Source: Alicyclobacillus sp. SP_1
Lineage (GTDB): Bacteria; Bacillota; Bacilli; Alicyclobacillales; Alicyclobacillaceae
Length of the DNA: 46,582 bases
NCBI RefSeq assembly: GCF_024706985.1
Contig: NZ_JAMCCX010000022.1
Span: forward strand, 1-46,582
Direction: 5' to 3'
Shown: piece after piece, positions 7,686-46,582 of the stretch
Position numbering within the stretch: position 1 is the first letter of the stretch
Layout of the letters: each line of letters opens with the position of its first letter
The notes under the pieces: model-generated
Told to the model about the DNA's origin: nothing
The model's database searches: none
Seen by the model: the letters and a program-made list of their open reading frames with translations, nothing else
Program-made: the position numbers and the translations under genes

Positions 7686-8399
7686 TTACAATTTTGGAAG
7701 CAAGTCCATCGGGTTTTGGACCTTGCCATCCTGGTTCACTTGGAAGTAGAGATGGTTGCCCTGACCTTCCTCGAATTGGCACGTACCGCTGGTACCAATC
7801 GCCTCTCCTTGGCTGACGTCTTCGCCTTGCTTGACGGAGACATCTCCGAGGGATTCATACTTTTCCACATATCCGCCGGGACTCGAGATTTCGACCGTCT
7901 CCCCGTAGAGAGGGTTCTTCTCGACCTTCGTCACTTGCCCACTGAGAGCGGCCGTGACGTTGAAAGCGGCTGCCGTATCGCTCTTGATGTCAATTCCTTG
8001 GTGCGCGTAGTACGAATTATCGTACTTGACAAGTGCGGCTGCTTGTTCGCTGGCGGATCCGTTCGGCTCAAAGTACCCTAGACTCACCTTAAACCCGGTT
8101 CCTCCGCCCACTGGCCAAACGAACGTTTCTGCTGCTGTCGTGGGTGCGGTGGTATTCGTGTCAATGGCGTTGGGTGACACGGCCGGTGCCGCGCCGCCAA
8201 ACTGAGTCTTGGCGTACACGAGACCGATGATGACTGCGGCTGCCCCAAGGTACAAAGCTGGGTAAAGCCAACGGCGACTGCGAGTAGTGCGGGTGCGCTT
8301 TCCGACCGGAGCCTTCAGATTTGGCTTCTCAGGTTCGGGCGCGCTGTCATTCGTACCATGACTTCCTTGTGATGGAGTAGGATGCTTTTTGTCATCCAT
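7686..8399 (-). CDS. spoIIQ: SpoIIQ-like forespore LytM/M23 domain protein, probably catalytically inactive
   Basis: A forespore membrane protein that pairs with mother-cell SpoIIIAH to form the engulfment zipper and channel. It has a charged cytoplasmic N-terminus (1-43), one membrane segment (about 45-63), a Thr/Ala/Pro-rich linker (70-90) and an M23 LytM-like domain (about 93-235). The first zinc motif HxxxD is intact (H133, D137), but the second motif reads H216-L-Y218. The histidine that is the third zinc ligand in LytM enzymes is therefore replaced by tyrosine. B. subtilis SpoIIQ is also degenerate, though at a different position. A SigF-type promoter and a GAGGTGA ribosome binding site precede it. 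It follows spoIID as in B. subtilis. Confidence 0.88.
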   Translation of the reverse strand: MDDKKHPTPSQGSHGTNDSAPEPEKPNLKAPVGKRTRTTRSRRWLYPALYLGAAAVIIGLVYAKTQFGGAAPAVSPNAIDTNTTAPTTAAETFVWPVGGGTGFKVSLGYFEPNGSASEQAAALVKYDNSYYAHQGIDIKSDTAAAFNVTAALSGQVTKVEKNPLYGETVEISSPGGYVEKYESLGDVSVKQGEDVSQGEAIGTSGTCQFEEGQGNHLYFQVNQDGKVQNPMDLLPKL

Positions 8400-25190: not shown

Positions 25191-25221
25191 AAAAAGAGTC
25201 AGGCCCATGGGCCTGACTCTT
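25191..25221 (-). terminator. intrinsic terminator of the atp operon
   Basis: A perfect 28-base palindrome (AAGAGTCAGGCCCA and its complement, 25194-25221) is followed on the minus strand by a T-run (TTTTT from within the arm into TTTTTAATG). It lies about 58 bases after the atpC stop and is the clearest terminator in the window. Confidence 0.9.
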
Positions 25222-32941: not shown

Positions 32942-34126
32942 TCAAAGACGCTCGACGACCATTGCGACTCCCTGGCCTCCGCCGATACAGAGTGTCGCCA
33001 ACCCCAGACGTCCTTGTCGCTTCTGTAATTCGTGCAACAACGTGACCAAAATGCGCGCTCCGCTCGCACCGATAGGATGGCCTAATGCGACCGCCCCACC
33101 GTTGACATTGACTTTGGCATAGTCCCAGCCGAGGCTTTTGCCGACTGCGAGAGACTGCGCGGCAAAAGCCTCATTCGCCTCAATCAGGTCGATGTCCGCC
33201 AGCGTGACCCCCGCCCGGGCAAGCGCCTTTTGTGTCGCTTCGATGGGACCGAGCCCCATCACTTCTGGAGAGACACCAACACTCGCGTAGCCCAACACTC
33301 GCGCCAACGGTTTCAGTCCGTGGCGAGTGGCAGCAGCTTCGCTGGCCACCACCATCGCCGCCGCACCGTCGTTGATGCCACTGGCATTTCCCGCGGTGAC
33401 CGTTCCATCTGGTTTAAAGGCTGGCCGCAAGCGCGCCAACGTTTCGACCGTCGTGCCTGCACGCGGGAATTCGTCCGTGTCAAAGAGAACCTCCGGACCT
33501 TTACGCTGTTTGACGGGAACTGGCACAATCTCGTCGCGAAATCGCCCCGACTGAATAGCCGCCGCAGCCCGTGACTGGCTCTCGGCTGCAAATGCATCTT
33601 GCTCCTCTCGACTCAGAGAATACCGCTCTGCCACGTTCTCTGCGGTGATGCCCATGTGTACGTCGCAAAAGGCACACCAGAGACCATCGCGAATCATGCT
33701 GTCCACTACCACTCCATCGCCCATGCGATAGCCAGTACGAGCTTGCGGCAACAGGTAAGGTGCATTCGACATACTCTCCATGCCACCAGCTACCAGTAAC
33801 TCCGCATCTTCGGCACGAATAGCTTGACTGGCCAACATGACGGCTTGAAGACCAGAACCACAGACTTTGTTGATGGTCATCGCAGGAATCGAGTCGGAAA
33901 GTCCGGCGCGAATGGAGGCTTGGCGTGCGGGATTTTGTCCCAACCCGGCCTGCAACACATTTCCCATCAGCACCTCTTCGACGGAAGCGTCCGGTGCTCC
34001 GGCCCGTCGCAACGCTTCTCGAATGACCAACGCTCCGAGGTCTGGAGCGGAAATGCTGGACAGTGCCCCCATAAAATTACCGATGGGCGTACGCACTGCT
34101 CCTGCTAATACAACGGATGATGGCAT
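32942..34126 (-). CDS. acetyl-CoA C-acetyltransferase (thiolase)
   Basis: Condenses two acetyl-CoA to acetoacetyl-CoA, or cleaves longer 3-ketoacyl-CoA, in the cytoplasm. All thiolase active-site blocks are present: the nucleophile C89 in [22 protein letters not shown], the histidine in GHPIGASG, and the second cysteine in CIGGGQG. It is 394 residues, the usual size. AGGAGGG precedes the start. It stands between the epimerase gene and the atp operon, where B. subtilis has no such gene. Biosynthetic (ThlA/PhaA-like) versus degradative (FadA-like) use cannot be told from here. Confidence 0.92.
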
Positions 34127-43878: not shown

Positions 43879-44902
43879 AAAGGCGCGGGCGCACAATAGA
43901 AACAACGCGGTCCACTTGGCGCAGGTCCTGGGACACGGAGACATGGTAGTCGCGAAACTGTTGGTTCTCGGCGAATAAGGCGGCCACTGCGGCAGCTTGT
44001 CCGGCGCCAACCTCCAGAAACACTGCGGCAGGCCCTTGCTGCGGCAGCCAAGCAGGACTCAGTCGCGCGATTTCGCGATAAAAGTGCAGGCCATCAGCAT
44101 GACCATCAAGCGCTAGTCGCGGTTCAAAGTCGCGCACTGAAGGTTCCAATTGGTCCAACTCCGCGGTGGGAATGTAAGGCGGATTGGACAACAGCACGTC
44201 GAAGCGGCGTTCTTGTTCCAGAGCCGTATGGACGGGTGCCGGGGCGGACGCATCACGGGAAGGGGTGACTGGGCTTTCGAGGTGTGCCAGGCCATCGACG
44301 AGGCGAAACGTCACATTGGCGCAAAGTCGCTTCGCGTTGCTGGCGGCGACTTCGAGCGCGCCGGGCGACACATCCCATCCCTCGACCTTTGCCCGCGGAC
44401 AGAAGAGCGCCACGCTGATGGCCATGCAGCCGCTGCCACAACCGAGATCGACCAGAGAGGCCGTGGGATGATGCACGGAGACGAAGTCCACGGCGGCCTG
44501 AACGAGCCACTCCGTGTCTGGCCGCGGAATCAGGCAGCGCGGGTCTACGGAAAACAGATGCCCGAAAAATTCGGCCTGGCCTGTGATGTAAGCGACCGGC
44601 TCGAAACGCATGCGACGTGCAGCCAAATCATCGATGTGCTGGACCTCATCCGCAGAAACAGTCTGCTGGAAACGAAGTGGCAGTTGGCTTCGGTCGCCTC
44701 CCACGGCAAAAGCGACGAGTTCCATGGCTTCTCGCCGCGCCTGTTGCTCGCGCTCTGGGCGAGGCCAGTCGGCATAGAGGGAACTCCCCAGAAAGTGGGC
44801 CGTTACGCGCTGCACCACCTGGGCAATGGTCGATCCGTTGCAGAGCACACGGTCATCGTGCCCGCCCCTTGCCTCCTGCGAATCTCCGCTACCTGACGCC
44901 AT
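43877..44902 (-). CDS. prmC: peptide chain release factor N5-glutamine methyltransferase
   Basis: Methylates the glutamine of the GGQ motif in release factors, using S-adenosylmethionine. Motif I LVDLGCGSGCMAI binds the cofactor and NPPY (about residues 240-243) binds the substrate glutamine; RCLIPRPDTEWLV is also family-specific. It is 341 residues, somewhat long, with about 30 extra N-terminal residues and an Ala/Pro/Ser-rich insert near 215-225. The ATG at 44902 overlaps the prfA stop (TGATG) and has GGAGG four bases upstream; GTG at 44905 is too close. It is directly downstream of its substrate gene. Confidence 0.94.
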   Translation of the reverse strand: MASGSGDSQEARGGHDDRVLCNGSTIAQVVQRVTAHFLGSSLYADWPRPEREQQARREAMELVAFAVGGDRSQLPLRFQQTVSADEVQHIDDLAARRMRFEPVAYITGQAEFFGHLFSVDPRCLIPRPDTEWLVQAAVDFVSVHHPTASLVDLGCGSGCMAISVALFCPRAKVEGWDVSPGALEVAASNAKRLCANVTFRLVDGLAHLESPVTPSRDASAPAPVHTALEQERRFDVLLSNPPYIPTAELDQLEPSVRDFEPRLALDGHADGLHFYREIARLSPAWLPQQGPAAVFLEVGAGQAAAVAALFAENQQFRDYHVSVSQDLRQVDRVVSIVRPRL

Positions 44903-45975
44903 CACGCCTCCATCGCTTCCGACAAACGCTCCGTCTGGTCGGCCACGATGAGATGTTGGACAATCTCGTCTAAATCTCCGGCCAAAACGGCATCGAGCCG
45001 ATGGAGGGTAAGCCCAATGCGGTGGTCCGTGACTCGGCTCTGCGGGAAATTGTAGGTGCGGATGCGCTCGCTGCGATCTCCCGTGCCGACCTGACTTTTG
45101 CGAGCTGCTGCCTGTTCTTCCTGTTGCTCCGCCTGATACTTTTCAAAGAGGCGGGCCCGAAGCACTCGCATCGCCTTGTCGCGGTTTTTCAACTGCGACT
45201 TCTCGTCCTGGCAGGACACCACGAGACCTGTGGGCAGATGGGTGATGCGGACAGCAGACTGGGTGGTGTTGACGCTTTGCCCGCCTGGCCCAGTCGAGCA
45301 AAACGTGTCAATGCGCAGATCCTTCTCATGCACCTCGACCTGTACATCCTCCACTTCGGGCAGCACGGCCACGGTTGCCGTAGACGTATGAATGCGCCCT
45401 CCCGACTCGGTCGTCGGCACGCGCTGAACGCGATGTGCGCCACTCTCGTATTTCAATTTGCTGTAAGCACCTTTGCCGAGAATCGACAGCGTGGCATCTC
45501 GAAAACCACCGATGTCTGTGTAACTGGCATCGATGAGTTCTGTCTTCCATCCATTCGCCTCAGCGTAGCGCGTGTACATGCGTAGAAGGTCTCCGGCAAA
45601 CAGGGCCGCCTCTTCCCCGCCCGCCGCTGCACGGACTTCAAGGAACACGTTCTTGTCATCGTTCGGATCCTTTGGCAACAACAACACCTGGAGCCGATTG
45701 CCGTACTCCTCCAACCGGCGAGAGACTTCGTCCACTTCCTGTTTCACCATCTCACGCATCTCATCATCGAGCTTCTCGCTCAACATCGCCTTTGTCTCCT
45801 CGAGTTGGCGCTCTGCCTCTCGGTAAAGACGGTAAGTTGTGACGGTCTCTTCTAAATCCGACTGTTCTTTGGCGTACGTTCGCAGTTTCGTTGGATTCCC
45901 AGAAATGTCCGGGTTACAGAGCCACTCACTGAGCTGCTCATACCGCTTTTCCATAGACTCTAGTTTGTCAAACAC
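44902..45975 (-). CDS. prfA: peptide chain release factor 1
   Basis: Terminates translation at UAA and UAG. The stop-codon-reading tripeptide is P187-T-T189 (P-x-T of RF1) in QRVPTTES, and the catalytic GGQ is at 231-233 in [12 protein letters not shown]. It is 357 residues long. GTG start at 45975 with GGAAGGAGG upstream. About 105 bases separate it from the structured element beyond rpmE. Confidence 0.97.
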
Positions 45976-46080
45976 GGCAATTCCTCCTTCCGTTCAAAAT
46001 CGTCCGCAAAACGCGCCATGCATCGACACCAGCACGCATCCACCGACATGAGTCCCGTCAACATGAACCTACATGAATAA

Positions 46081-46174
46081 CCTCGAAAAGAGCCATTACA
46101 GGCGCGCAGCACAATCGTGCCTGGGGTGACCATAAAAATGGCACCCCTGCAACCAGAAATGGCTCTTCTCGAGG
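46081..46174 (-). repeat. nested inverted-repeat element between rpmE and prfA
   Basis: Outer arms of 17 bases (46174-46158 and 46097-46081, CCTCGAGAAGAGCCATT paired with AATGGCTCTTTTCGAGG) pair completely in RNA with one G-U. Inside are a GGGGTGCCAT / ATGGTCACCCC stem with one bulge and a four-base T loop, and a GCAC-GATT-GTGC hairpin. It therefore folds as a three-way junction of 94 bases. It starts nine bases after the rpmE stop. No U-tract follows. A structured RNA, a 3'-end processing signal or a miniature inverted-repeat element are possible. Confidence 0.65.
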
Positions 46175-46182
46175 AAAGCGAA

Positions 46183-46398
46183 CTACTGAGCTGTCTGAGT
46201 TTGAATTCCGTACTTTTTGTTGAAACGGTCGACGCGTCCGCCCACATCTATCAGCTTTTGCTTTCCTGTATAGAACGGGTGGCATTTCGAACAAATTTCA
46301 ACGCGAAGATTGCCCTTCACCGAACCGGTCTCAAACGTCTCTCCGCACGCACAGGTAACCGTCACCTTTTGATAATTCGGATGTCCCTCTGATTTCAT
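46183..46398 (-). CDS. rpmE: 50S ribosomal protein L31, zinc-binding type
   Basis: Ribosomal protein of 71 residues that bridges the subunits. [11 protein letters not shown] and [12 protein letters not shown] provide the cysteines of the zinc-containing (C+) form, followed by [15 protein letters not shown] at 46398 has AGAGAGGTGA upstream; a 12-residue longer frame is rejected. In B. subtilis tdk lies between rpmE and prfA, but here only the structured element does. Confidence 0.96.
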
Positions 46399-46442
46399 GC
46401 CGTTCACCTCTCTCAAAAACCACTTTGTAGACACTGCGCTCT

Positions 46443-46471
46443 ATACTAGCACACTGATTACAATTTGTCAC
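46443..46471 (-). promoter_or_regulatory. SigA promoter of rpmE
   Basis: Minus-strand GTGACA (46471-46466), 17-base spacer ending in TGC, TAGTAT (46448-46443). The -35 matches at 5 of 6; the TGn extension supports the weaker -10. It gives a leader of about 40 bases. Confidence 0.6.
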
Positions 46472-46553
46472 GCCCATGCGCGCGTGAAAAAATATTGCAA
46501 TTTCTCCTCTCTCAGGAAAAGTACGTTTTTCTCTCATTTCCTCATTCAATCGC

Positions 46554-46578
46554 ACCATTTCGCATTTGACCATTTCGC
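46554..46578. repeat. two tandem ACCATTTCGC repeats at the right edge
   Basis: Two identical 10-base units at 46554-46563 and 46569-46578 with a 15-base period, about 85 bases upstream of the rpmE promoter. The window ends here, so it is unknown whether more copies follow. Confidence 0.45.
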
Positions 46579-46582
46579 GTCC

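Follow-up and report, generated by a model that had tools for sequence, protein, structure and literature searches.

The junction of rpmE and prfA in Alicyclobacillus sp. SP_1 raises the question of what a long, branched palindrome is doing between two genes that lie on the same strand. The palindrome sits near one end of the window, that is, the whole stretch of DNA that was analysed (46,582 nucleotides, one of the 105 contigs that make up a 3.4-Mb genome). The upstream gene, which we take from its sequence and position to be rpmE, encodes ribosomal protein L31, and the downstream gene, presumably prfA, encodes peptide chain release factor 1 (RF1). Among the matches listed, the closest named relatives of the prfA product are from Alicyclobacillus species at 75-76% protein identity; 57 of the 61 genomes yield a match at E ≤ 1e-60, which in a few cases reaches only the level of the weaker paralogue. 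Both genes are on the minus strand, with 207 nt from the rpmE stop to the prfA start. The reading favoured here, which comparison of sequences and predicted folds makes rather probable, is that the element is the intrinsic terminator of rpmE, a long, branched and probably leaky one located inside an rpmE-prfA transcription unit. The element is of an ordinary kind and an uncommon shape. The relevant features of the locus are the following.

46183..46398, minus strand: rpmE, ribosomal protein L31, 71 amino acids, stop TAG at 46183-46185 (from translation)
44902..45975, minus strand: prfA, peptide chain release factor 1, 357 amino acids, GTG start with AGGAGG upstream (from translation)
46443..46471, minus strand: promoter-like site upstream of rpmE, GTGACA-17-TAGTAT with TG before the second hexamer (consensus match only)
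46081..46174, minus strand: whole element, a branched, probably leaky putative intrinsic terminator of rpmE, upstream of prfA (from the fold and the anatomy of relatives)
46158..46174, minus strand: 5′ outer arm, CCUCGAGAAGAGCCAUU (predicted pairing)
46081..46097, minus strand: 3′ outer arm, AAUGGCUCUUUUCGAGG, with the interrupted U-tract UCUUUUC after a GGC base (predicted pairing)
46123..46147, minus strand: inner hairpin 1, GGGGUGCCAU...AUGGUCACCCC (pair probabilities 0.93-1.0)
46109..46120, minus strand: inner hairpin 2, GCACGAUUGUGC (pair probabilities 0.99-1.0)

The initial annotation had described, from the letters of the DNA, a 94-base unit with 17-bp outer arms enclosing two separate hairpins and starting close to the rpmE stop, and this description holds. 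The element begins at the ninth base after the TAG. The prediction is firm for its two inner hairpins (pair probabilities between 0.93 and 1.0) and less so for the short closing helix of the junction (0.33 to 0.71). The predicted fold has a z score of -5.75 on the minus strand and -6.70 on the plus strand, and none of 200 shuffled sequences folded as well on either strand; the low plus-strand value is what would be expected of a near-palindrome. The outer arms nevertheless distinguish the two strands. On the minus strand, which is the sense strand of both genes, all 17 positions are paired (46081-46097 with 46158-46174), one of them as G-U, whereas on the plus strand this same position is an A-C mismatch; the sense strand is thus the one that the element suits. 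Six inverted repeats of comparable quality, defined by 17-bp arms with 16 or more Watson-Crick matches over a span of 50-130, were counted in 38 stretches of this genome (649,271 bases, about 19% of it), against none in one Markov control. The element is well beyond chance, though other repeats of its class exist in the genome.

Two perfect hairpins with 17-bp arms and no evident U-tract occur elsewhere in the same genome (L225:6304-6353 and L210:3103-3161). The window itself also holds a perfect 14-bp inverted repeat with zero loop at 25194-25221 (AAGAGTCAGGCCCA/TGGGCCTGACTCTT), and a hairpin at 33131-33172 with perfect 13-bp arms (GAGGCTTTTGCCG/CGGCAAAAGCCTC) set 16 nt apart, which may be another terminator.

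An intrinsic terminator consists of a stem followed by a run of U, and the initial annotation had stated that the U-tract was absent. This was only partly right. A GC-containing stem is present on the sense strand directly after rpmE, and the 3′ arm reads AAUGGC-UCUUUUC-GAGG before running into the tail UUAUUCAU; a short, C-interrupted tract thus follows the GGC base of the stem. The tract is weak (UCUUUUCG, 5 U in 8) and is paired with the A-rich 5′ arm, so that the helix continues past it, which is why it was overlooked. The tail UUAUUCAU, which follows the full helix, is a second weak tract and likewise has 5 U in 8. Two terminator scorers both chose the whole 17-bp stem together with this tail in preference to UCUUUUC, and the point of termination is therefore uncertain; a separate terminator scan returned only an inner site at 46161-46142 (one, against a shuffle mean of 1.6, hence no excess). 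The identity of part of the 3′ arm with that of a same-genus relative and the U-runs that follow TGGC in other relatives, both described below, favour UCUUUUC as the likely tract of the window. When the RNA is folded as it would stand with the polymerase on UCUUUUC, the branched hairpin is already formed, at -36.7 to -46.4 kcal/mol. For the internal terminators described in the portion of PMC9045158 drawn on here, efficiency rose with the length of the poly(U) tract, and a stem that lacked such a tract failed to terminate; since the tract in the window is short and interrupted, the element should be weak. The case suggests that an operon-internal terminator may take the form of a striking branched palindrome, the outer stem of which a simple hairpin-plus-U-tract scan misses, as the separate scan did here. 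The alternative of a simple terminator, with which the initial annotation had contrasted its own proposals, is accordingly correct as to kind, a terminator being the best reading, but not as to "simple", the stem being long and branched.

In the one same-genus genome compared (G001), rpmE is followed by an element of similar length, the ends having been chosen by the analyst. It keeps 12 consecutive pairs of the 17 outer pairs of the window, nine unchanged and three altered (G-U/A-U, A-U/G-U and U-A/G-U), two by a one-sided and one by a two-sided change, although a covariation statistic would need more than two sequences. The 3′-arm segment UGGCUCUUUUC is identical in the two genomes, and the fold of the G001 element has a z score of -3.38, with 1 of 200 shuffles as good. 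The four outermost outer pairs and the inner hairpins of the window are not kept in G001; since the inner hairpins differ, the branched cap is not conserved.

For the wider family, 40 of the 41 genomes were inspected downstream of rpmE, G017 having no rpmE match. A stem base of the form GCCA.../...TGGC followed by a U-rich tract is found after rpmE in 23 of the 40, distributed over 6 of 16 genera (g1, g2, g3, g5, g9 and g12). Eighteen elements from these 6 genera were aligned, having been picked by eye for the shared base and being thus biased toward the motif; GCCA, TGGC and TTT are invariant in this alignment, and the relatives carry runs of 4-7 U. A named stem of 22 pairs has 78.3% of its cells paired against 72.2% in shuffled alignments, and its covariation score is 0.194 against 0.130, neither value being reached in 500 shuffles and the score dropping when the stem is slid out of register. 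The four core pairs never vary and are therefore uninformative either way. A neutral scorer that looks for a stem and a U-tract after rpmE was significant on the sense strand in 25 genomes out of 40 and on the antisense strand in 4 out of 40, significance being defined as at most 2 of 40 shuffles matching and both strands being judged against sense-strand shuffles. The 15 of 40 genomes in which it found no significant sense-strand terminator include visible misses, namely short CCTGC/GCAGG-CTTTTTT-like hairpins of genus g4 and hairpins in G035, G036, G063 and G064, which perhaps do not account for every miss.

Two covariance models mark how far this comparison reaches. The first (R1) was built from the 18 sequences, window included, and its best 23 family matches, all of at least 34 bits, sit at the rpmE-prfA place, these matches or near relatives of them having been in the model itself; the best match off that place scored 27.8 bits, and the model failed to recover its own training element of G002. 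The second (R2) was built from 16 elements of other genera with genus g1 left out, and a search with it did not find the elements of the window and G001. Within the window it matched only 8260-8334 (11.6 bits), and its four matches in genome G000 are all elsewhere, three inside and one at the edge of predicted reading frames. As R2 misses both g1 elements, the case for homology outside the genus has only position and anatomy behind it, and what may be claimed for the wider family is a shared position and a shared kind of element, not a homologous RNA family.

Two further observations were made in genus g3. Two successive hairpins follow rpmE in L056, L050 and L060, the first with arms GGCCAGGCA/TGCCTGGCC or close to these and the second being the GCCA/TGGC-UUUUU element. 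The post-rpmE sequence of L172 (G027, placed in g8) matches that of g3 (L056), and the contig is possibly misbinned.

The position of the element bears on how prfA is transcribed. The promoter-like site upstream of rpmE is the sole one on the minus strand within 44800-46582, a region in which both strands combined gave 2 such sites versus a shuffle mean of 0.9. Twenty intervals between rpmE and prfA were collected from the family and 19 were scanned by consensus only (G002 was left out for length); promoter-like sites scoring at least 9 of 12 were found in 0 of the 19, the best score being 8. From the end of the U-tract to the prfA start these intervals measure 24-109 nt, and in 11 of the 19 less than 60 nt. 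RF1 is essential. Given an essential prfA, a short gap and no promoter-like site, transcription probably crosses the terminator in the short-gap genomes. The window's own gap from the element to prfA is about 105 nt, which could hold a promoter unseen by a consensus scan; as far as can be judged from the sequences, prfA is probably transcribed through the element here also. The suggestion that the element acts on prfA at the RNA level is thus supported in a limited form, that of a terminator which RNA polymerase probably reads through on its way to the gene.

The favoured reading would operate as follows. As the polymerase leaves rpmE, the GC-rich AAUGGC/GCCAUU helix and its branched cap would form before UCUUUUC is cleared, and a fraction of the polymerases would stop at this tract while the remainder continue into prfA. 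In the read-through RNA the outer arms could then zip through and past the U-tract into the 17-bp helix. One promoter would in this way yield much L31 mRNA and little RF1 mRNA. If the read-through is true, the supply of RF1 would depend on a leaky terminator in the family.

The same helix may be viewed from the standpoint of the finished RNA. It is possible, at a clearly lower probability, that the element chiefly governs mRNA stability or processing, as an RNase III-like target, a 3′-end protector or perhaps a stable small RNA, and that it terminates little. A 17-bp helix running past the U-tract would be a fit substrate for such a role, and the text consulted of PMC9045158 ties paired U-tracts and unpaired regions of internal terminators to the stability of the upstream mRNA. 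Weighing on the other side is the U-tract anatomy found after rpmE in many genomes of the family. A stable 3′ end of the rpmE mRNA is possible.

A regulated version of the terminator appears unlikely. Here the helix would toggle between terminating and read-through states on a signal such as a shortage of RF1 at the rpmE UAG or an RNA-binding protein. UAG is read by RF1 alone and UGA is not read by RF1, and since rpmE of the window ends in UAG, control of the RF1 supply by RF1 itself was considered. Among the 40 family genomes, rpmE ends in TAG in 11, TAA in 18 and TGA in 11. Of the 16 genera, 7 have one or more genomes with TAG, compared with a TAG stop in 71 of 394 long reading frames in the sampled part of the window's genome; this gives a P of about 0.015 if genera are taken as independent, which related genera are not. 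A precedent is the autoregulation of RF2 through a UGA-based frameshift, as related in the cited part of PMC8073009. Against such an attenuator, the 11 genomes with UGA include all rpmE-bearing genomes of g2, g11 and g15, by which a general RF1 mechanism is ruled out: the RF1-only stop is not conserved before the element, and control through it is not general. The base of the terminator, moreover, starts about 20 nt past the stop, beyond the reach of a terminating ribosome, which covers roughly 10 nt past the stop. Rfam 15 gave no match in 45900-46582 at E ≤ 5 and none in the loci of 20 relatives at E ≤ 1. More doubtful still is the extended proposal that the rpmE-prfA junction is a valve for RF1 supply, an attenuator that must be crossed for RF1 expression across much of the family and that responds, in the UAG lineages, to how active RF1 is at the stop codon of rpmE. 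Translational read-through of the rpmE TAG was rejected as a separate candidate: the frame stays open across most of the element, but in G001 it stops after three codons (judged by eye). The stop of prfA itself is TAG in 0 of 30 family loci (L031-L060).

Quite improbable also is a ribosome termination structure, that is, a stem closely following the stop codon, which would prevent re-initiation and so separate the translation of the two genes. The start of the element at the ninth base after the stop would suit this role, and PMC7518266, in the section cited, reports structures of this kind at 18-65% of genes across 128 genomes. It would, however, leave the TGGC-U-tract pattern of the relatives unexplained, and with the genes 207 nt apart re-initiation would be unlikely anyway.

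Very improbable is a miniature transposable element or other mobile repeat, which the initial annotation had raised in view of 94 nt with long terminal inverted repeats; the candidate was rejected after searches of the genome itself, 60 relatives, phages and plasmids. BLASTN finds one genomic copy at E ≤ 0.001, and one extra 17-base match at E ≤ 1. Beyond the element itself, the matches at E ≤ 1 in 34 of 61 genomes (its own included) cover only 15-44 bases, the best in the 60 relatives having an E of 0.002 over 25 bases, and phages and plasmids gave no match at E ≤ 1e-5. No empty site was seen, a related element instead occupying the same place in the one same-genus genome compared, and the G-U pair, a mismatch on the other strand, also argues against a repeat of this type. 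A lone chance palindrome, for which the only point is that R2 misses the element, is just as improbable in view of z scores of about -6 with 0 of 200 shuffles as good, the absence of such repeats from one 649-kb Markov control and the pairing kept in G001.

Among open-licence PMC papers, none was found that treats rpmE, prfA, a terminator and read-through together, and the part of PMC8632094 considered names neither rpmE nor prfA. Several known systems nevertheless resemble the element in one respect or another. A ribosome termination structure is, like it, a stable fold just after a stop codon, but its role is translational and a U-tract is absent from its description in the cited section of PMC7518266. 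The L31 ribosomal leaders are likewise structured elements associated with rpmE, but according to the passages used of PMC7247131 they sit upstream of that gene, and the element here has no Rfam match. The NusA/NusG-dependent terminators of B. subtilis, as described in the portion cited of PMC8060035, share interrupted U-tracts and weak A-U or G-U pairs at the base of the stem; unlike in these, the interruption here is near the stem and not distal. B. subtilis also has a partial terminator between secA and prfB, the gene for RF2 (PMC8073009, in the part referred to above), and a partial terminator, putative here, thus precedes a release-factor gene in both cases, although the gene pair is another and prfB has its own UGA frameshift control. 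A further likeness is to the internal terminators in ABC-importer operons of Ruminiclostridium cellulolyticum, which depart from the canonical form in that their stems are longer, their U content is lower and the U-tract is paired, and for which the available text of PMC9045158 reports partial termination by Northern blots. Those terminators were shown experimentally, whereas the present, putative one lies between rpmE and prfA and carries a branched junction cap. As in R. cellulolyticum, the genes are co-directional, the stem is long, the U content is low and the U-tract is paired with the 5′ side, and read-through would presumably determine how much mRNA of one flanking gene is made relative to the other.
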